A program made the translations under genes and the position numbers. The notes under the pieces are model-generated. The model had not been told where the DNA came from, searched no databases, and was given only the letters and a program-made list of their open reading frames with translations. From positions 1-12,348 of the forward strand of contig JAAYZQ010000500.1 in assembly GCA_012514775.1 (NCBI GenBank): 12,348 nucleotides of DNA. The letters are read 5' to 3'. Position 1 is the stretch's first letter. The number at the start of each line of letters is the position of its first letter. Source of the stretch: Anaerolineaceae bacterium (GTDB lineage: Bacteria > Chloroflexota > Anaerolineae > JAAYZQ01). Shown in pieces: positions 463 through 12,348 of this stretch.

Positions 463-2952
463 TCAGGCCGGGATGCGTACCCGGATGCACGTGCCCTGCC
501 CTGCCCCGCTCTCGACCTCCAGGGTGCCGCCCAGCTCGGCGACCCGCTCGCGCATGGAGCCCAACCCCATCCGGCCGGGGAACTCGCCCTCGGGGTCAAA
601 GCCGATGCCGTCGTCCTGCACCTCGAGCATCGCCTCGTGGGGGCCGGCCTGGAGCCGAAGGATGACCCGGCTCGCCTCGGCGTGCTTGATGACGTTGTTC
701 AACGCCTCCCGGGCGATGCGATAGAGCGCTTCCTTGGCCTCGAGGGCAACGTCGGGCTCCTCGCCCAGCTCGGTCTCTACCTCCAGCTCGTGACGCGCGC
801 CCAGGGCCGCAGCTTGCCGGGTCAAAGCCACGACCAGGCCGTCCTTTTCCAACGAGTCGGGTCGCAGCTCAAAGATCAAGGCGCGCATCTCGGCCAGGCC
901 CGCCTCGGCCAGCGAAAGCACGTAGCCCATCGGCTCCACGGCCCGGCCCGGGTCCTGTTCCAGCAGTGTTAGGGCAGTGTGCCCGGCCAGGCCGATGCTG
1001 TACAGCACCTGCGAGACCGAATCGTGGAGCTCCCGGGCCAGTCGCTGCCGCTCTTCCAATACCGCCAGTCGCCGTGTCTGGGCAAAGAGGTGCGCGTTCA
1101 CAATGGCGGTCGCCGCCTGGTTGGCGATGGTCTGGGCCAGGGCGGCGTGGTGCGACGTGTAGGCCGCGGGCTGGACGTGATAGAGCAGCAGCCAGCCCTG
1201 AAGCTGCGCGTGGACCGTGAACGGGACCCCCATCCAGGAGCGGACGTGGGCCATCTCTGCGTCGGGATGCGACTCCAGCGCCTGCCGAACGTCGTGGGCC
1301 AGCCGGCCCTCGCCGCGCACGTCGTCCACGATGACGGGCTTGCCGGACTGCATCGCCGCCCAGAGCTCGTTGTTCCTGTCCACAAAGGGTAGCAGAGAGG
1401 CCTCCTCTCCAGAGTTGCTCCCCCGATGGGCCACGTGCTTTAACTCATCGCGTTCCAGGAGCAGGATGCTTGCGGCGGCACAATCCACCACCTGGCGCAA
1501 CTGGTCCAGGATCAGGCCCAGCAGCGGGCGCAGCTCCAGGGTGGAAGCGATGCTGGCCGAGGCATCCAGCAGCGTGGCCAGCTCGCGGGTGCGCTGTTGG
1601 ACCCGCTGTTCCAGCAACTGGTACGCCTGTACCTCCTGGGTGATGTCGCGAATGACCACCAGCGTGTGGGGTTGGCCGCGATACAAGAAGTCGGTGCCGT
1701 CCAACTCGACGTGGAAGGGCGTGCCGTCGCGGCGCAGGCTCACGGCGCGGCCGTGGAACTGCCCATTGGCCCTGACCTGTTCCAGGAACTGGCTGAAGAG
1801 TGGCATCGAGTCGGGATGGATCAACTCCGCAGGCTCGCGAGGGGACGAGTGGGAGAAGGGATAACCATGCATGCGGCTGGCGGCCGGGTTAAAGTCCACC
1901 AGGCGGCCCTCCAGGTCAAAGATGAGCAGGCCGTCGCTGGTGGACTCGAAAACGCTGCGATACTGCTCTTCGCGCTCGGCCAGGGCCGCCTCCGCCCGCC
2001 GGCGCTCGGCAATGTCCTCCTGGAGCTGTTCGTTGATCGTCAAGATCTCGCGCGTCCGCCATTGAACCGCTTCCGTCAGCCACGCCTGCCGGTTCACGGA
2101 GAGGTGGGCGAGCCCGGCACCCAGGAGGACGATGATGAACCCGCCGATCTCGAAAACGAGCAATGCCTGCCTGGTAGCGCTGCCCCATCCTCCCTTCGGA
2201 ACGGCAGCCAGCTCCCACGTTTCCTCTGACAATTGGACCAGGACCAGGACCGGATCCTGGTCGACAATCTCGGGTGGCCCAACAAAGACCTGCCCCTCGC
2301 TGTCGCGCAGGGCAAAGGTCAGGTGTCCCGTGTCTTCGGCGAGCCCCCCGTCCTTGAGCAGGACCGAAACGTCGAGGGCGATGGCAACCAGCCCGGCAAA
2401 GACGTCTTCCTGGTACACGGGCTGCCGGGCGATCAAGCCCAGGCTGCCGTCCATGAGTGCCACGGGCCCCGTGGCGACCGCCTGCCCCGATTCCAGGCAG
2501 CGCAGAGTATCGGCCCGGACCTGCGGGCGTGGATCCTGCAACAGGTCGTACGCCAGCAACCCTTCGTTTTCGGTTCGGGGATAGACATAACGAACGATGC
2601 CGGCGGGGGCCACGGCCAGGTAGCGGATGCCCTGGGCGCCGGCGTACAAGCCCTCGGCGAACGTCTCGAACCGGGCGCCGAGATCCTGAGCCGACGCCTC
2701 CACCTGGACAAAGGCGGACAGCCCTTGCAACCGGGCGATGCGGCGGTTGATGGCCAGCGACAGCGTGTTCCCCCGCAGGGACGTCTCGGCCATGGCTTCG
2801 GCGCGCTCTTCCTTCAGCAAGCGCGCCTCGTACCAGCGCATCGCGTACCACCAGGTGAAAAGCAACACCACGAGGGTGAGCGTCGCGGCGAGGGCGGCTT
2901 TGCCGCTGGGGCTCGTGGCGTAATCCAGGAACCGCTGCCTTGCCCGGTTCAT
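463..2952 (-). CDS. Membrane sensor histidine kinase, CHASE-PAS-GAF-HisKA_3 type (NarL-class)
   Basis: 829 residues. One membrane helix near residues 18-38 and a second near 262-285 flank an extracytoplasmic CHASE-like sensor (about 50-255). A coiled linker follows (295-330), then a PAS domain (about 328-438; YRSVFESTSDGLLIFDLEGR and later DITQEVQ). Next comes a second helix, a GAF domain (about 458-622), and a HisKA_3 domain with phospho-acceptor H643 in RLARELHDSVSQVLYS. The HATPase_c domain has an N-box near 749-758 (ALNNVIKHA), DDGIGF at 780-785 and GRMGLGSMRERV at 793-803. This is the architecture of kinases that phosphorylate NarL/LuxR-type regulators. The ATG at 2952 overlaps the TGA of the upstream regulator (ATGA), and no good SD precedes it, so translation is probably coupled. 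The ligand is unknown. Confidence 0.93.
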   Translation of the reverse strand: MNRARQRFLDYATSPSGKAALAATLTLVVLLFTWWYAMRWYEARLLKEERAEAMAETSLRGNTLSLAINRRIARLQGLSAFVQVEASAQDLGARFETFAEGLYAGAQGIRYLAVAPAGIVRYVYPRTENEGLLAYDLLQDPRPQVRADTLRCLESGQAVATGPVALMDGSLGLIARQPVYQEDVFAGLVAIALDVSVLLKDGGLAEDTGHLTFALRDSEGQVFVGPPEIVDQDPVLVLVQLSEETWELAAVPKGGWGSATRQALLVFEIGGFIIVLLGAGLAHLSVNRQAWLTEAVQWRTREILTINEQLQEDIAERRRAEAALAEREEQYRSVFESTSDGLLIFDLEGRLVDFNPAASRMHGYPFSHSSPREPAELIHPDSMPLFSQFLEQVRANGQFHGRAVSLRRDGTPFHVELDGTDFLYRGQPHTLVVIRDITQEVQAYQLLEQRVQQRTRELATLLDASASIASTLELRPLLGLILDQLRQVVDCAAASILLLERDELKHVAHRGSNSGEEASLLPFVDRNNELWAAMQSGKPVIVDDVRGEGRLAHDVRQALESHPDAEMAHVRSWMGVPFTVHAQLQGWLLLYHVQPAAYTSHHAALAQTIANQAATAIVNAHLFAQTRRLAVLEERQRLARELHDSVSQVLYSIGLAGHTALTLLEQDPGRAVEPMGYVLSLAEAGLAEMRALIFELRPDSLEKDGLVVALTRQAAALGARHELEVETELGEEPDVALEAKEALYRIAREALNNVIKHAEASRVILRLQAGPHEAMLEVQDDGIGFDPEGEFPGRMGLGSMRERVAELGGTLEVESGAGQGTCIRVRIPA

Positions 2953-3599
2953 GTCGCGCGTTTCGACGGGTCGAGGGTCACCAGGCCGGAGCGCACAGCA
3001 TAGAGGGCCGCCTGCGTCCGGCTGGAGACGCCCAGCTTGCTGAGGATGTTGCTGACGTGTGTCCGTACCGTCTTGTCGGCAATGACCAGGGCCTCGGCGA
3101 TCTCCTGGTTCGACTTGCCCAGGGCCAACTGCTGCAACACTTCGGCCTCGCGGCGGGTCAGGGGTTGGGGATCCTTCGGCGGTGGGACCTCCCTGAGCAG
3201 CCGCTCGGCGGCCGAAGGTGAGAGGGACACCTGCCCTGCCGCCGCTTGCTTGATGGCCCGGCACAACTCCTTGGCATCGATGTCCTTGAGCAGGTAGCCG
3301 ATGGCCCCGGCACGCATGGCCCCGTAAACGGCGCTGTCCTCCAGGACGCTGGTCAGGGCAATCACCTCCACGGATGGCATCTCGCGCCGGATGGCCTCGG
3401 TGGCGGCGATGCCATCCATCACCGGCATCAGCAGATCCATGAGGACGACGTCGGGCTCAAGCTCCCGGGCCAGGCGCTGGGCTTCGAGGCCGTTGCTTGC
3501 CTCGCCTACGATCTCCAGCTCGGGGTCCGCAGCCAGGAACATCCCGAGTCCCTTGCGAACTACCTTGTGATCGTCCACGATTAGAATGCGAATGCCCAT
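2949..3599 (-). CDS. NarL/FixJ-type response regulator (receiver + LuxR HTH)
   Basis: 216 residues. The N-terminal receiver has the acidic pair D9-D10 (ILIVDDHKVVRKGL), phospho-acceptor D55 (VVLMDLLMP), T83 and the conserved K105. A short linker leads to a LuxR-type HTH (about 147-205: LTRREAEVLQQLALGKSNQEIA, then TVRTHVSNILSKLGVSSRTQA). It is therefore a transcription factor activated by phosphorylation, and the overlapping kinase gene is the obvious partner. The ATG start is preceded by GGAGG with 8 nt spacing on the minus strand. A 12-bp palindrome lies 24-35 bases upstream of the start, and a further inverted repeat lies in the divergent promoter, so autoregulation is plausible. Confidence 0.95.
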   Translation of the reverse strand: MGIRILIVDDHKVVRKGLGMFLAADPELEIVGEASNGLEAQRLARELEPDVVLMDLLMPVMDGIAATEAIRREMPSVEVIALTSVLEDSAVYGAMRAGAIGYLLKDIDAKELCRAIKQAAAGQVSLSPSAAERLLREVPPPKDPQPLTRREAEVLQQLALGKSNQEIAEALVIADKTVRTHVSNILSKLGVSSRTQAALYAVRSGLVTLDPSKRAT

Positions 3600-3622
3600 C
3601 GCCCTGGCCTCCCTGCCGCAAC

Positions 3623-3634
3623 TGTCCTAGGACA
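3623..3634. repeat. 12-bp perfect palindrome upstream of the response regulator
   Basis: TGTCCTAGGACA is perfectly self-complementary. It lies in the predicted 5' leader of the response regulator/kinase operon. It could be an operator, but it could also be chance. Confidence 0.45.
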
Positions 3635-3669
3635 AATATCCCACACAAGACCGACCCTTTACCCGATGC

Positions 3670-3686
3670 AGGGCACCATCTGCCCT
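3670..3686. promoter_or_regulatory. Inverted repeat at the divergent regulator promoter (possible operator)
   Basis: AGGGCA (3670-3675), 5-nt spacer, TGCCCT (3681-3686): 6-bp perfect arms. It abuts the -10 element at 3687-3694, so it would cover the start site of the minus-strand promoter and the upstream region of the plus-strand one. Size and symmetry suit a dimeric LuxR-type regulator, but no protein can be assigned from sequence. Confidence 0.45.
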
Positions 3687-3714
3687 ATTATAATGGGTAT
3701 GCATGGCTTGGCAA
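3687..3714 (-). promoter_or_regulatory. Predicted sigma70 promoter for the response regulator/kinase operon
   Basis: On the minus strand TTGCCA (3714-3709) and TATAAT (3692-3687) are separated by 16 nt, giving a start near 3680 and a leader of about 80 nt. The -10 lies in ATTATAAT (3687-3694), which is self-complementary, so TATAAT is also readable on the plus strand at 3689-3694 for the divergent receiver gene. No clear -35 is visible for the plus direction. Confidence 0.5.
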
Positions 3715-3755
3715 AATTCGACGATCTGCCTGGCGTCGGTACGGGGATTTGTGTG

Positions 3756-4145
3756 ATGATTCAGGTTCTGCTGGTGGATGAACAGGCCGTTGTGCGGCAG
3801 GGATTGCGGATGCGCCTTGCCCTGGAACCGGATCTCGAGATCGTAGGCGCGGCCAGAAGCAGCGAAGAAGCGCTGGGAATGGCTCGCACCATCACTCCCG
3901 ACATCGTCGTCATGGACATCGACATGCCGGGAGTCGATGGGTTCCAGGCCATCAGGCAGATGCGCGATGCCATGCCGGGTGCCGCGGTGATCGTGCTGAC
4001 GCTGCGCGAGGGCAAGGACGTCCGGGCACAGGCACTGCAAGCCGGCGCGTTGGCGTTTATCGAAAAACAGGGTGGAGCCGAACCCCTGCTGCTCGAGATC
4101 CGCCGGCTGGCCGCCGGCGTGGCGGACGAGGGCCGATCAGGGTAG
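3756..4145 (+). CDS. Stand-alone receiver-domain protein (single-domain response regulator)
   Basis: 129 residues, all receiver: acidic pocket D8-E9 (VLLVDEQAVVRQGL), phospho-acceptor D54 (IVVMDIDMPGVDG), T82 and K104. The sequence style is that of NarL-family receivers, but the protein stops about 20 residues after the last receiver helix with no HTH. I see no leftover LuxR HTH codons between 4146 and 4246. It could be a CheY-like adaptor, a phosphate sink for the neighbouring kinase, or the remnant of a full regulator. I chose ATG 3756 because it opens the receiver at its normal first strand and has GGGG 9 nt upstream. The frame is open back to 3666, but that adds an unrelated leader. It diverges from the two-component pair. 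Confidence 0.85.
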   Translation: MIQVLLVDEQAVVRQGLRMRLALEPDLEIVGAARSSEEALGMARTITPDIVVMDIDMPGVDGFQAIRQMRDAMPGAAVIVLTLREGKDVRAQALQAGALAFIEKQGGAEPLLLEIRRLAAGVADEGRSG

Positions 4146-4246: not shown

Positions 4247-4903
4247 CTATTGTTCCCCTTCCAATCGATTGAGGCGGTTCAACGTTTCGGCCAGTTGCTC
4301 TTGCAGGCGCTGGACGCTTTCACGGAGCTGCGCCAACTCCTCTTGGTCTTCGGAGGGAGGCACGGGCGCGGGTTGAACCTGGCCTCCTGTGCCCATCCCA
4401 CGGCCCATTCCCGTGCCCTGGCCCATGCCCTGGCCGCGGCCCATCCCCATGCCACGACCCATGCCACGACCACGGCCCATGCCCTGGCCGCGGCCCATGC
4501 CCATCCCGGCACCTGTGCCAGGGGCAGGGACCGTGGCACCGCCAATGCCGGCGTGAGCGTCCACGTTGGCGCCGCCCATGGGCTGCAGCCGGCCGGCCTT
4601 GAAGGCTTCCACCGCCTGGCGCACGGTCCCTTCCGAAACCAGGTAGCCCGGCACGCCGGCTGCCTGCAGGACCCCGAAAGCATTCGGCCCCAGGTTGCCG
4701 CTCAGCACCGCCTGGGCGCCGCGCTCCACGACGAACTGGGCCGCCTGGATGCCGGCCCCCCCACCCAGGTCCATCGCCGGGTTGGCCACTGCCTCGTACT
4801 GCATGCTCTCTGTGTCGACAAAGAGGTAGGCCGGGCACCGGCCAAAGACGGGGCTGGCAGGTGCGTCGAGCGTCTCACCTTGTGCAGAAACTACGATCTT
4901 CAT
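4247..4903 (-). CDS. NifX/NifB-type cofactor-binding domain protein with DUF5320-like Gly/Met/Arg and coiled-coil tail
   Basis: 218 residues. Residues 1-105 match the dinitrogenase iron-molybdenum cofactor domain (NifX/NifB family): MKIVVSAQGETLDAPASPVFGRCPAYLFVD, then GGGAGIQAAQFVVERGAQ-type helix, VLSGNLGPNAFGVLQAAGV. Related small proteins bind Fe/Mo-S clusters or their precursors, often outside nitrogen fixers. A linker leads to a Gly/Met/Arg-rich tract (131-174, built from GMGRG units) and a C-terminal coiled coil (about 184-216). That tail resembles the DUF5320 proteins encoded at 6583 and 6902, so this looks like a natural fusion of the two families. C23 is the only cysteine. Start ATG 4903 has a strong SD (GGAAGGAG, 9 nt away). 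No nif structural genes are visible, so a role in nitrogen fixation is not implied. Confidence 0.88.
   Translation of the reverse strand: MKIVVSAQGETLDAPASPVFGRCPAYLFVDTESMQYEAVANPAMDLGGGAGIQAAQFVVERGAQAVLSGNLGPNAFGVLQAAGVPGYLVSEGTVRQAVEAFKAGRLQPMGGANVDAHAGIGGATVPAPGTGAGMGMGRGQGMGRGRGMGRGMGMGRGQGMGQGTGMGRGMGTGGQVQPAPVPPSEDQEELAQLRESVQRLQEQLAETLNRLNRLEGEQ
4420..4498. repeat. Direct 25-nt repeat inside the Gly/Met/Arg tract
   Basis: An identical 25-base sequence beginning GGCCCATGCCCTGG occurs at 4420-4444 and 4474-4498, exactly 54 bases (18 codons) apart. Each copy encodes part of the GMGRGQGMG unit of the NifX-type protein. Being in phase, copy-number changes would lengthen or shorten the tail without a frameshift. 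Confidence 0.8.
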
Positions 4904-5155
4904 GAATTCGATCTCCTTCCTTGTCTATTACCCATGGCAATCATTGTTGGTCTCCTGGCTCCTCCAGTACATGTGCATGTCCGAAAAACTGGACAGCAAC
5001 TCAAGGGCCCCAGGCGTTGCCATCCGCTGGCGTGTTCGAACACCACGGAAGGCCGGCGACGGCCTCTGGGGGCCTCTGTCAGGCTGCCGGGAGCGCTGCA
5101 AAGAACTTCTCCGGCCCCCAAACTGCATTGGTTCGCAACCTCTATGTGTAACTTG
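4904..5155 (-). promoter_or_regulatory. Long structured 5' leader of the NifX-type gene
   Basis: The minus-strand promoter at 5161-5189 predicts a leader of about 250 nt, long for a bacterial message. It contains several self-complementary stretches: GTGTTCGAACAC (5032-5043, perfect palindrome), GGCC-GTCGCC-GGCC near 5052-5065, and CCAGT...ACTGG around 4965-4993. It also contains AGCCAGGAGACC (minus strand, 4960-4949), which equals the first 12 bases of the B12-box consensus of cobalamin riboswitches. I could not find the other conserved parts of that riboswitch (GGGAA...GGTG core, CCGCnACTGT, closing P1 helix). I therefore call only a possible cis-regulatory leader, not a cobalamin riboswitch. 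I see no convincing protein in this stretch. Confidence 0.35.
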
Positions 5156-5160
5156 CATAT

Positions 5161-5189
5161 AGCATAGCACACCCGCGTCCCTTTGTCAA
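5161..5189 (-). promoter_or_regulatory. Sigma70 promoter for the NifX-type gene
   Basis: On the minus strand TTGACA (5189-5184), 17-nt spacer, TATGCT (5166-5161), with TG one base before the -10 (extended -10, TGCTATGCT). The direct repeat CATATAGC (5156-5163) overlaps the -10. The expected start is near 5154. Confidence 0.78.
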
Positions 5190-5223
5190 GTATTTTAGAC
5201 AAAATGTCAGTTATCTATTGACA
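5182..5223. promoter_or_regulatory. Inverted repeats between the divergent promoters (possible operators)
   Basis: TTTGTC (5182-5187), 10 nt, GACAAA (5198-5203), and TGTCA (5205-5209), 9 nt, TGACA (5219-5223). The first overlaps the minus-strand -35 and the second overlaps the plus-strand -35. A protein bound here would cover both promoters at once. Confidence 0.55.
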
Positions 5224-5246
5224 GATACCATATAGCGTGCTATACT
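5218..5246 (+). promoter_or_regulatory. Sigma70 promoter for the metal-handling operon, overlapped by a palindrome
   Basis: TTGACA (5218-5223), 17-nt spacer, TATACT (5241-5246), preceded by TGC (extended -10). The expected start is near 5253. The palindrome TATAGC-GT-GCTATA (5231-5244) spans the spacer and most of the -10, a classic repressor position. The 8-mer CATATAGC at 5229-5236 also occurs at 5156-5163, 73 bases away. Confidence 0.82.
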
Positions 5247-5276
5247 GGGCGCAAGAACAGGCCGCGAGGGGCTTCC

Positions 5277-5348: not shown

Positions 5349-6089
5349 GTGACGATCACGGACGACCTTTTGGCAGAGCTGAAAACGGATGCGCCGGTTC
5401 GCCAGGTGGTGGTAGGTGCCTTCTGGACGGCGGTGGTGCTGGAGAGCAACCCGGTCCGCGCCGGGCTGGGGTCCACGTTGCACGGCGAACACCACGACGA
5501 GGGCCCGCCAGTCCGGGAGCCGGGGCGCCTGCGAGAGCGAAGCGGGCGGGAGCTGGCCGAGTTGCTCCGCTCGCCGCAGATCCTGGAGGCCAGCATTGGC
5601 ATGGCGGCGTTGAACGCGCTCCTCGACGTGGACGAATCGAGTTGTGTCGATCTCAACGCCGAGGAGCTCATCGTAGAGCGGGGGACCGGCAAGCGGGTGG
5701 CCATCGTGGGCCACTTTCCCTTCGTAGACCGCGTGCGACAGGTTGCGCGGGAGTCCTGGGTGCTGGAGCTGCGTCCGCGTCCCGGCGACCTGGCCGCCGG
5801 CCAGGCGGTGGACGTCCTGCCCCAGGCGGACGTCGTTGCCTTGACGGGCACCTCGCTCCTCAACCACACGTTTGACGATCTCGTCGCCCTGTGCCGGCCC
5901 GAGGCCTTTGTCGTCCTCCTCGGAGCCAGCGCCCCCCTCTCGCCCGTGCTGCTGGAACGGGGCGTGGACGCCGTATCGGGCACGAAAGTGGTGGACGTGG
6001 CGGCGGCCGTGCGCGCCGTGAGCGAAGGAGCAACCTTTCGCCAGATACCGGGCAAGCGCCTGTTGACCATGGCGCGACGGGATCGGTAG
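5349..6089 (+). CDS. DUF4213/DUF364 putative heavy-metal chelation protein
   Basis: 246 residues, no signal peptide or membrane helix. The N-terminal part (about 1-95) has the DUF4213 pattern: VVVGAFWTAVVLE, then GLGSTLH and LEASIGMAALNALL, an enolase-N-like fold. The C-terminal DUF364 part (about 105-240) is Rossmann-like, with VAIVGHFPFVDRVR (117-130), VVALTGTSLLNHTFDDL (162-178), VVLLGASAPLSPVLLERGVD (188-207) and a final SGTKVVD. The family is annotated as heavy-metal chelating from structure, and its biochemical role is not established. Start GTG 5349 has GGAGGT 8 nt upstream. It is the first main gene after the plus promoter at 5218-5246, and the CGGC gene follows 34 bases later. Confidence 0.88.
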   Translation: MTITDDLLAELKTDAPVRQVVVGAFWTAVVLESNPVRAGLGSTLHGEHHDEGPPVREPGRLRERSGRELAELLRSPQILEASIGMAALNALLDVDESSCVDLNAEELIVERGTGKRVAIVGHFPFVDRVRQVARESWVLELRPRPGDLAAGQAVDVLPQADVVALTGTSLLNHTFDDLVALCRPEAFVVLLGASAPLSPVLLERGVDAVSGTKVVDVAAAVRAVSEGATFRQIPGKRLLTMARRDR

Positions 6090-6123: not shown

Positions 6124-6561
6124 ATGGTAAAGGTCGGGATCATAATCTGCAATCGCTATCATACCTGCGCAGGCGGCAAGTGCTTGCGCTCGCTGCGCAA
6201 CCGGGAGGGAGCCTTTGCCCGGTACCGGGACGAAGAGGTGGAGCTGGTCGGCTACACAACCTGTGGCGGCTGCCCGGGCGGCAACGTGGAATACGCCCCG
6301 GCCGAGATGAAAAAGAACGGCGCCGAGGTCATCCACCTGGCGACGGGGCTGGTGGTCGGCTATCCGCCTTGCCCGCGGTTGCAGGCTTTTTGCGAGTTCA
6401 TTCCGGCCAAGTATGGCCTGGAGGTGGTCGTGGGCACCCATCCCATCCCGCAGAACTACTATCTGACCCACGGTGCCCTGGGAACCTGGCGCTCGGCCAG
6501 GTGGCAAGAGTTGATTCAGCCGGTGCTCACCGACGAAGCGACGCGGCGGGCATACGACTGA
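6124..6561 (+). CDS. CGGC domain-containing protein (predicted metal-binding)
   Basis: 145 residues with cysteines at C9, C15, C20, C47, C50, C83 and C90. The signature is VGIIICNRYHTCAGGKCLRS at 4-23, TTCGGCPGGNVEY at 45-57 (the CGGC box) and PPCPRLQAF at 81-89. HPIPQNYY (105-112) carries a conserved-looking histidine. This is the CGGC family (PF08821), found mostly in anaerobes and predicted to bind a metal or Fe-S centre; I know of no proven activity. It ends at TGA 6559-6561. The ATG is preceded by GAGGAGGAG at good spacing. It sits between the DUF364 gene and a DUF5320 gene in one run, consistent with a shared metal or cofactor function. Confidence 0.9.
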   Translation: MVKVGIIICNRYHTCAGGKCLRSLRNREGAFARYRDEEVELVGYTTCGGCPGGNVEYAPAEMKKNGAEVIHLATGLVVGYPPCPRLQAFCEFIPAKYGLEVVVGTHPIPQNYYLTHGALGTWRSARWQELIQPVLTDEATRRAYD

Positions 6562-6582
6562 GAGTGGAAGGAGGTGAGTGAC

Positions 6583-6834
6583 GTGCCACGTTTTGACGGT
6601 ACCGGACCGCAGGGTGCCGGTCCCATGACCGGACGCGGCGAGGGATACTGCGCCATAGAGCAGCCCGAGCCGGGCAGAGTGGCTCGCGGCTATGCCGGAT
6701 TGCAGGGGACACCCCTGCGTCGCGTGCCCCTGGCGTCCCGGCCCTTCAGATGGCTGCCGGCGCTGGCGTGGTGGCCCGCCAGGTGGGCAGGTCGAGCCTG
6801 GGCCGCCCGGCGAGGGCGAGGCCGCCGCTGGTAG
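6583..6834 (+). CDS. Short DUF5320 protein lacking the coiled coil
   Basis: 83 residues. It opens with the DUF5320 signature (PRFDGTGPQGAGPMTGRGEG, then YC with C23 the only cysteine). After residue 30 it departs from the usual pattern: no Gly-rich tract with coiled coil, but a Trp/Arg/Ala-rich, strongly basic end (RWLPALAWWPARWAGRAW...RGRGRRW). I chose GTG 6583 because the family starts with this motif and GGAGGT (6570-6575) lies 7 nt upstream; an in-frame GTG at 6574 overlaps that SD. Function of DUF5320 is unknown; such genes often accompany NifX-type genes. The basic, Trp-rich tail might contact nucleic acid or membrane, but that is speculation. Confidence 0.75.
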   Translation: MPRFDGTGPQGAGPMTGRGEGYCAIEQPEPGRVARGYAGLQGTPLRRVPLASRPFRWLPALAWWPARWAGRAWAARRGRGRRW

Positions 6835-6901
6835 TGCAGCTATCCAGTGGGCTACAGGACAAGAGATCTGTGAGGTATGAGCTGGAAGGGAGGTGAGCAA
6901 T

Positions 6902-7312
6902 ATGCCAGCAGGAGATCGAACGGGACCCATGGGGATGGGACCGATGACCGGCCGCGGTGCGGGCTACTGCGGCGGCTATGACGCTCCGGGTTGGTCCAAC
7001 CCGTTTCCAGGGCGTGGCTTTGGCCTTGGCCTGGGCTGGGGACGGGGCCGCGCCTGGGGAGGAGGCGGTGGTTGGCGCCACCGAAACTGGTACGATGCCA
7101 CGGGCGTGCCCGGCTGGATGCGCTTTGGCTACGGGCCGGCGTGGGGAGCGCCGCAGCCCTGGGGGGCATCGCCCTCCTGGGGCTACGGGCCCTATGCCCC
7201 AGAGCCGAGCCGCGAGCAAGAGATCGAGTTCCTCCGGCAGCAGGCTGAGTGGCTGAAGCAAGAGCTGGACGCCATCGGCCAGCGCATACAGGAGCTGGGC
7301 CAGGAGGAATAG
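6902..7312 (+). CDS. DUF5320 protein with Gly/Trp-rich middle and C-terminal coiled coil
   Basis: 136 residues. N-terminal signature DRTGPMGMGPMTGRGAGYC (5-23; C23). The middle (35-98) is very rich in Gly, Trp, Tyr and Pro (GLGLGWGRGRAWGGGGGW and several PWG/WGYG units). A charged C-terminal helix follows (about 102-135, REQEIEFLRQQAEWLKQEL), predicted to be a coiled coil. This is the full DUF5320 layout, and the coil resembles the end of the NifX-type protein at 4247-4903. ATG 6902 has GGGAGG 8 nt upstream; the in-frame GTG at 6893 overlaps that SD. 67 bases separate it from the previous DUF5320 gene. Together they suggest a duplication in which one copy lost the coil. Confidence 0.82.
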   Translation: MPAGDRTGPMGMGPMTGRGAGYCGGYDAPGWSNPFPGRGFGLGLGWGRGRAWGGGGGWRHRNWYDATGVPGWMRFGYGPAWGAPQPWGASPSWGYGPYAPEPSREQEIEFLRQQAEWLKQELDAIGQRIQELGQEE

Positions 7313-11469: not shown

Positions 11470-11985
11470 ATGCAACGCCGGTCACCCAATCCACGTCTGA
11501 TGGCGGCGATGGTCCTCATGACGGCCATCGTCTTTGTGCTTACCCGCGTCATCCAGGTGCCCACGCCCGTGGTCGGTTACATTCACCTGGGCGACCTGGG
11601 CATCTTTTTCAGCGCCTTTGCCTTCGGCCCCCTCGTCGGGGCGGTGGCCGGCGGCCTGGGCACCGCCCTCGCCGACCTGACCAGCCCCTACGCCCAGTGG
11701 GCCGTCTTCTCGTTGCTGATCCATGGGCTCCAGGGTTGGGTTGCCGGTTGGCTGGCGCAACGCTGGCCGGGTGCCCGGGGCCTGGTGGCTGCCGGCCTGG
11801 CCGGCACCGCCATCGTGGTCGCCGGTTACCTGCTGGCCGGCACGATCCTGGTGGGCCTGGGCGCGGCCCTCACCGAGATCCCCTTGAACCTCATCCAGGC
11901 CCTCACCGGCGCCGTGGTGAGCGCGCCGCTCTATGCCGCCGTGCGGCAGGCCTACCCGCCCATCGCGCGCTTTGGCTCTCGCTAG
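11470..11985 (+). CDS. ECF transporter S component (substrate-binding membrane subunit)
   Basis: 171 residues, almost all hydrophobic, with about five or six helices (near 10-28, 42-68, 76-94, 104-132, 140-157). The stretch GYIHLGDLGIFFSAFAFGPLVGAVAGGLGTALADL (36-70) is the hallmark of the ECF S-component family (PF12822 type), resembling HmpT/ThiW-like members. The N-terminal LMAAMVLMTAIVFVLTRVIQV fits the first helix that contacts the EcfT coupling protein. Start ATG 11470 has GGGGGA 6 nt upstream and a strong promoter just before it. The ATPase gene follows 6 bases later. The substrate is not certain; a vitamin or precursor is typical of the family. Confidence 0.87.
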   Translation: MQRRSPNPRLMAAMVLMTAIVFVLTRVIQVPTPVVGYIHLGDLGIFFSAFAFGPLVGAVAGGLGTALADLTSPYAQWAVFSLLIHGLQGWVAGWLAQRWPGARGLVAAGLAGTAIVVAGYLLAGTILVGLGAALTEIPLNLIQALTGAVVSAPLYAAVRQAYPPIARFGSR

Positions 11986-11991
11986 CGACCC

Positions 11992-12348
11992 GTGGTGACG
12001 AGTAATGCGGCGGGCGAGGCCCGGGCCGCCATCCGGGTGGAAGGCCTGCGCTTTGCCTACCCGCCCCTCTCTTCCGGCGCGATAGCGCCCTGGGTGCTCG
12101 ACGGCCTGGACCTGGAGGTCCGGGCCGGCGAGTGGCTGGCGGTCATGGGCGCCAGCGACGTGGGCAAGACCACCCTCTGCCTGCTCCTGGCCGGCCTGGC
12201 CCCGTCCCTCACCGGCGGCACGCTTGAGGGCCGCGTCCTGGTGGCCGGCCGCGACACACAGCACCATCCTCCGCCCGCCCTGGCCGCCCTCGTGGGCCTG
12301 GTCTTCCAGGAGGTAGAGGCCCAGGTCTTTAACCCCTCCGTCGAGGCA
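11992..12348 (+). CDS. ECF/ABC transporter ATPase subunit (N-terminal part)
   Basis: The frame opens at GTG 11992 (or the next codon, GTG 11995) and stays open to the right edge: 119 codons. The product has an A-loop-like IRVEGLRFAYPP, the Walker A motif VMGASDVGKTTLCLLLAGL, and a Q-loop region VGLVFQEVEAQVFNPSVE, typical of EcfA ATPases. In Walker A the fourth residue is Asp instead of the usual Gly (GASDVGKT), still within GxxxxGK[ST]. Walker B and the ABC signature lie beyond the window. No SD is evident, so it probably relies on coupling to the S-component gene 6 bases upstream. An EcfT gene is expected further on but is not visible. Confidence 0.88.
   Translation, partial: MVTSNAAGEARAAIRVEGLRFAYPPLSSGAIAPWVLDGLDLEVRAGEWLAVMGASDVGKTTLCLLLAGLAPSLTGGTLEGRVLVAGRDTQHHPPPALAALVGLVFQEVEAQVFNPSVEA

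Follow-up and report, generated by a model that had tools for sequence, protein, structure and literature searches.

Predicted PadR operators overlap both promoters of a divergent NifX/DUF364 locus in an Anaerolineaceae bacterium

The window, by which we mean the whole stretch of 12,348 nucleotides analyzed here, contains two gene groups that face away from each other. On the plus strand, a DUF4213/DUF364 protein with a putative function in heavy-metal chelation (5349 to 6089; solved relatives 3l5o and 3npg) is followed by a CGGC-domain protein (6124 to 6561) and by two DUF5320 proteins, a (6574 to 6834) and b (6893 to 7312). The minus strand encodes a NifX-type protein (4247 to 4903) with a Nitro_FeMo-Co domain and a C-terminal DUF5320-like match that falls slightly under Pfam's cut-off. 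By protein, the nearest relatives are DUF364 proteins of 96 to 100% identity, and the closest named protein comes from an Anaerolineae MAG. In the genome DNA that was compared, the best DUF364 identity amounted to 72% (396 genomes of the class), 70% (a family), and 71% (the seven-genome order around G002), and a plasmid collection gave distant DUF364 relatives only (<60% identity). Beside the NifX gene, positions 463 to 4145 encode a CHASE-PAS-GAF histidine kinase, a NarL-type response regulator, and a divergent receiver-only protein; a similar kinase/regulator pair lies near DUF364 in locus L004. At the other end (11470 to 12348), we noted the S component of an ECF-type transporter (riboflavin-transporter-like family), and, after it, an ABC ATPase that is cut off by the window's end.

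The two gene groups are served by a pair of real, strong, divergent promoters of the sigma70 type. The plus promoter (5218 to 5246, plus strand) consists of TTGACA at 5218 to 5223, a 17-nt spacer, and TATACT at 5241 to 5246, with TG ahead of the -10 box, while the minus promoter (5161 to 5189, minus strand) has TTGACA as the complement of 5184 to 5189, again 17 nt, and TATGCT as the complement of 5161 to 5166, with TG in the same place. Coordinates and shuffles thus bear out the original prediction, which had described TTGACA, exactly 17 nt, and an extended -10 in both directions: the promoters score 11 (plus) and 10 (minus) of 12, and the six promoter-like sites in the window, the divergent two among the strongest, exceed the 1.2 ± 1.0 found in shuffles, i.e., they stand above chance. 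A gap of 28 bp (5190 to 5217) separates the two -35 boxes. We expect the plus promoter to drive DUF364-CGGC-DUF5320a-DUF5320b and the minus promoter to drive the NifX-type gene; judging by the -10 positions, transcription would begin near 5253 (plus) and 5154 (minus). A search of Rfam returned no match at gathering score, and the fold of the NifX gene leader was not unusual (z = -0.55).

Using a DUF364 protein alignment, we fetched 80 loci from public genomes and evaluated the gene neighborhood in the 76 of them that had at least 450 nt upstream. A padR gene directly preceded DUF364, in the same orientation, in 12 of the 13 loci with a DUF364 identity of at least 60%, in 4 of 18 at 50 to 60%, and in 0 of 45 below 50%. 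PF03551 was found in all five PadR proteins submitted, and the regulated operon of the relatives therefore encodes a PadR-family protein. In the window, for which it had been noted that no repressor gene was seen, a single tblastn query with an E cut-off of 0.01 found no padR either. A padR remnant between the plus promoter and DUF364 was considered and rejected as unproven: the matches were weak, with five residues (RALRD) at an E of about 0.3, and the lowest E of any match in the searched stretch was 0.04. While an ArsR-, Fur-, or DtxR-like regulator had been suggested, PadR is most likely, given that padR adjoins DUF364 in nearly all close loci and that its own promoter usually carries the operator described below; a Fur-like gene with a one-mismatch site was seen once in the relatives (L130).

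Twelve of 16 homology-found padR promoters align gap-free with the window's plus promoter (CTA-TTGACA-AATTGCACATAGTGTGS-TATAMT), orthologous padR-DUF364 promoters included, and these 12 carry a 21-bp imperfect palindrome, CTATTGACAA-N-TTGCAYATAG. Some of the conservation of this motif is promoter conservation because the -35 box belongs to it, but the spacer and the CTA ahead of TTGACA are conserved across the padR promoters as well. We built a matrix from the 12 promoters, with the window excluded, and used 61 of the 80 loci (L020 to L080; 896,728 bases) as background. The other four promoters (L011, L017, L019, and L021), which are more distant and out of register, contributed neither to the matrix nor to the 12-promoter counts; by the matrix, L017 and L021 reached 22.7 and 15.8 bits, respectively, at other positions, and L011 and L019 reached only 8.4 and 6.2 bits. 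Over 28 matrix-located padR promoter sites, dyad symmetry peaked at the 21-bp center with 6.7 of 10 pairs, compared to 2.7 ± 0.9 (mean ± SD) over all centers and 5.25 at the next best, where symmetry at conserved columns is partly selection because these 28 sites, like the 26 considered below, were picked from matrix-located ones. The best dyad spans CTA to ATAG, and its center lies 7 bases past the first T of TTGACA. Individual matrix promoters hold 3 to 7 of the 10 symmetric pairs, and the motif also occurs as a near-perfect palindrome (CTATTTGCATTGTGCATATAG at L149, 8 of 10 pairs) and as a perfect one (CTATTGACAAATTGTCAATAG at L152, 10 of 10). A palindrome pattern with up to two mismatches yielded 11 sites in 10 of 48 genomes, with one control match; 10 of the 11 have the CTATTGACA form, among which the window's minus-site sequence (see below) is absent, and the remaining one is G295:C357.

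Across 33 padR loci, two of which cover one region, 28 carried, on either strand of the 300 nt upstream, a site scoring 16 bits or more, and the motif was absent from 5. A Fisher test of padR against site (16/3/2/27, p = 5e-8) is given little weight, as its 150-bit cut was chosen after the list had been seen and the sites are partly tied to padR by construction; in all three of its genomes counted as having padR and no site, the operator is present by the matrix (L192, L194, and L201). In L014 (a 'Zipacnadia' MAG with padR-DUF364), two tandem promoter-operator-like sites lie about 180 and 90 nt upstream of padR, about 90 bp apart.

The two best-scoring sites in the window each overlap a core promoter. 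On the plus side, the predicted PadR operator CTATTGACAGATACCATATAG (5215 to 5235, plus strand) overlaps the -35 box and the spacer, and scores 27.1 bits (rank 1), with a weak dyad of 4 of 10 pairs. On the minus side, the predicted operator CTATGTGTAAcTTGCATATAG (5142 to 5162, no strand assigned) covers the last two -10 bases and the expected start region, scores 24.5 bits (rank 2), and has 8 of 10 pairs. None of 1,791,016 background positions scored as high as either site. With a symmetrized matrix, the plus site reached 21.5 bits, equaled by 1 of 895,508 positions, and the minus site 27.0 bits, equaled by none. The minus site reads ATGT-N9-ATAT, whereas the plus site retains only the outer CTAT/ATAG arms and, with so few symmetric pairs, could be decaying. 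With the full promoter-anchored matrix, the minus operator scored 5.4 bits and was missed because it is placed elsewhere in its promoter; a half-arm matrix revealed it. It is the strongest palindrome, and its start lies outside the region of 5156 to 5246 to which attention had originally been drawn.

Several features of that region had been singled out beforehand. The element CATATAGC, noted beside each -10 box, is indeed found at 5156 to 5163 and 5229 to 5236, 73 bp apart; the pair is more than chance, relatives of the element occur in related promoters, and it is the ATATAG arm common to both predicted operators plus flanking bases. Three inverted repeats that had been listed as overlapping the plus -10 box (TATAGC-GT-GCTATA, 5231 to 5244) or the -35 boxes (TTTGTC-N10-GACAAA, 5182 to 5203; TGTCA-N9-TGACA, 5205 to 5223) are present as well, but each is conserved in 0 of the 12 orthologous promoters, and we rejected them as operators in favor of the two 21-bp dyads. 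The idea of one regulator for both sides gains support, as the same predicted operator is found at each promoter. We also noted a possible weak second dyad, which we list tentatively (5200 to 5220, minus strand), 15 bp upstream of the plus operator and with the CTAT arm in common. It scores 8.3 bits (11.5 bits by the 12-promoter matrix, equaled by 151 of 1,791,016 background positions), and an overlapping dyad of at least 5 bits at the same offset, giving three arms in a row, was seen in 13 of 26 related plus-type promoters. Such a second dyad may let two PadR dimers bind.

Operator pairs at divergent promoters were read in three other genomes. The operator centers lie 73 bp apart in the window, and 100, 43, and 44 bp apart in G002, G011, and G010, respectively; in G010, one site of the two is weak, at 9.2 bits. 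A divergent-pair pattern run on 396 genomes matched four of them (G011, G307, G093, and G050), with only G011 recognized as being of this kind. No conserved, helically phased spacing was found among the pairs that we read; since the spacing varies, the looping between both sides that the original prediction had envisaged is unsupported, and the closeness of 73 bp to seven helix turns is, alone, weak evidence for a loop. In G002 (Anaerolineales UBA6131; locus L002), NifX and DUF364 are likewise served by divergent promoters that each have an operator, but there each gene group is headed by a padR gene (padR2 before NifX and padR1 before DUF364), both of which are missing from the window. In the minus promoter of G002, which serves padR2, the operator CTATATGCAAGATGCAAATAG takes a late position similar to that on the window's minus side. 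A transposase-like ORF (a label from sequence reading) lies between the padR2 and NifX genes at 5240 to 6733 of L002, a possible route to the separation of padR and NifX.

A pattern of promoter plus operator also occurred in front of other genes. Allowing up to two mismatches, we found 24 matches (12 with none, 5 with one, and 7 with two) in 12 of 12 genomes, versus 1 for the reversed control; allowing up to one mismatch in 48 genomes of one order, we found 31 sites, spread over 18 of the genomes, and none for the reversed pattern. Eighteen of these 31 sites precede padR, with padR-DUF364, padR-Mrp, and padR-DUF5320 among the arrangements. Six precede other members of the gene set without padR downstream, namely DUF5320-NifX (L115), DUF5320/NifX (L160), NifX alone (L172), DUF89 (L137), a small ORF followed by a ferredoxin-type ATPase (L173), and MobB (L171). 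Four sites, which may be chance, precede unrelated or unnamed genes (L130, Fur-like; L135, LacI-like; L169, of the phospholipid-methyltransferase family; and L168), and three were unreadable (two at contig ends and one without a locus). Gene-set members that bear the operator and have no padR of their own thus recur in relatives, as in the window, and at such sites the regulator therefore probably acts in trans. In G295, four perfect pattern matches coexist with a single padR match (E = 1e-25).

We propose, with a probability of roughly 0.78, that the divergent promoters are each overlapped by a PadR operator and that both sides are co-repressed by a repressor acting in trans. A PadR dimer would occupy the -35 box plus spacer on the plus side, and the end of the -10 box plus the start site on the minus side, and would block RNA polymerase at both promoters, such that the NifX-type and the DUF364-CGGC-DUF5320 genes would switch on together upon release of the repressor, most likely by binding of a small ligand. 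The DUF364 operon of relatives usually starts with padR, which probably controls itself there; as padR is missing from the window locus, the repressor would have to act from elsewhere in the genome. We infer PadR binding, repression, and the ligand, as well as the presence and location of padR in the source genome, from these comparisons.

An unlikely alternative is that padR was lost from the genome altogether, leaving both promoters constitutive and the operators as decaying orphans. The absence of padR from a position that it occupies in 12 of 13 close orthologous loci would fit such a loss, as would the low symmetry of the plus site (4 of 10 pairs). However, the minus site, with 8 of 10 pairs, is better than any of the matrix promoters, the plus site still scores 27 bits, and two freely drifting sites should not both stand out; moreover, the one detected padR and four perfect, separated sites of G295 make a distant padR plausible. 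Control of both promoters by the NarL/LuxR-type response regulator (2949 to 3599) or the receiver-only protein (3666 to 4145) is highly improbable: these genes are near the promoters (a few hundred to two thousand bases away), and L004 also has a response regulator and a kinase near DUF364, but relatives of the regulator were detected in 4 of the 80 loci and relatives of the kinase in 2, and the operator is found in many loci without either gene, its motif going with padR. We consider it least probable of all that the repeats reflect merely two near-consensus promoters with no regulator site. Two divergent TTGACA boxes do create some inverted repeats automatically, in line with the lack of conservation of the three palindromes listed originally; yet the palindrome at 5142 to 5162 fits the motif without containing a -35 box and with only the last two -10 bases, and the conserved spacer and CTA argue against this explanation as well.

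Co-repression by PadR would resemble known systems in several respects. Consensus operators of PadR proteins are ATGT/ACAT inverted repeats with arms 8 to 10 bp apart (PMC3506622, PMC5428041). The 21-bp motif resembles this consensus in that the minus site reads ATGT-N9-ATAT. LmrR of Lactococcus lactis, from the PadR-s2 subfamily, regulates itself and serves its own promoter and a second one, lmrCD (PMC5428041, PMC3506622); it binds riboflavin, and ligands such as riboflavin lower its affinity for the operator (PMC3506622, PMC5428041). Predicted operators in promoter regions and a probably self-controlled repressor that would serve its own and a second promoter are features in common with LmrR. 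LmrR targets a drug pump, whereas the genes here are metal/cofactor genes; our motif extends over more bases (21 bp, with a spacer of 9 and outer CTAT/ATAG), plus-type promoters hold the -35 box inside it, and in the window the repressor gene lies outside the locus. The first DUF364 structure paper lists PadR among the regulators in the genome context of DUF364 homologs and proposes for DUF364 heavy-metal chelation and a role in the synthesis of a flavin or pterin derivative (PMC2954201). Compared with the accessible part of that paper, the PadR neighborhood is common to both studies, and the predicted operator, promoters, and regulon come from the present one only. Nothing relevant on a regulon of the PadR/DUF364/NifX kind was found in the literature searched.

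More tentatively, and with considerable doubt, PadR in Anaerolineae might be the master switch of a scattered cofactor- and metal-handling gene set, comprising DUF364, an Mrp/NUBPL-type ATPase, DUF89, DUF5320, NifX, a ferredoxin-type ATPase, MobB, and the window's CGGC, and might sense a cofactor-like ligand, the latter reading resting on riboflavin binding by LmrR and on the flavin/pterin proposal for DUF364. If so, the window would represent a stage where the padR genes left the locus and both operators stayed. Little is understood about DUF364, DUF5320, CGGC, and stand-alone NifX-like proteins, and a common operator would place them in a single predicted regulon whose regulator can be tested, with a motif usable to find more members, in a group of bacteria represented here largely by metagenome-assembled genomes. 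At the off-set site L130 (G005), the one-mismatch operator-like sequence lies upstream of Fur-family-like and ferritin-like genes (labels from sequence reading).
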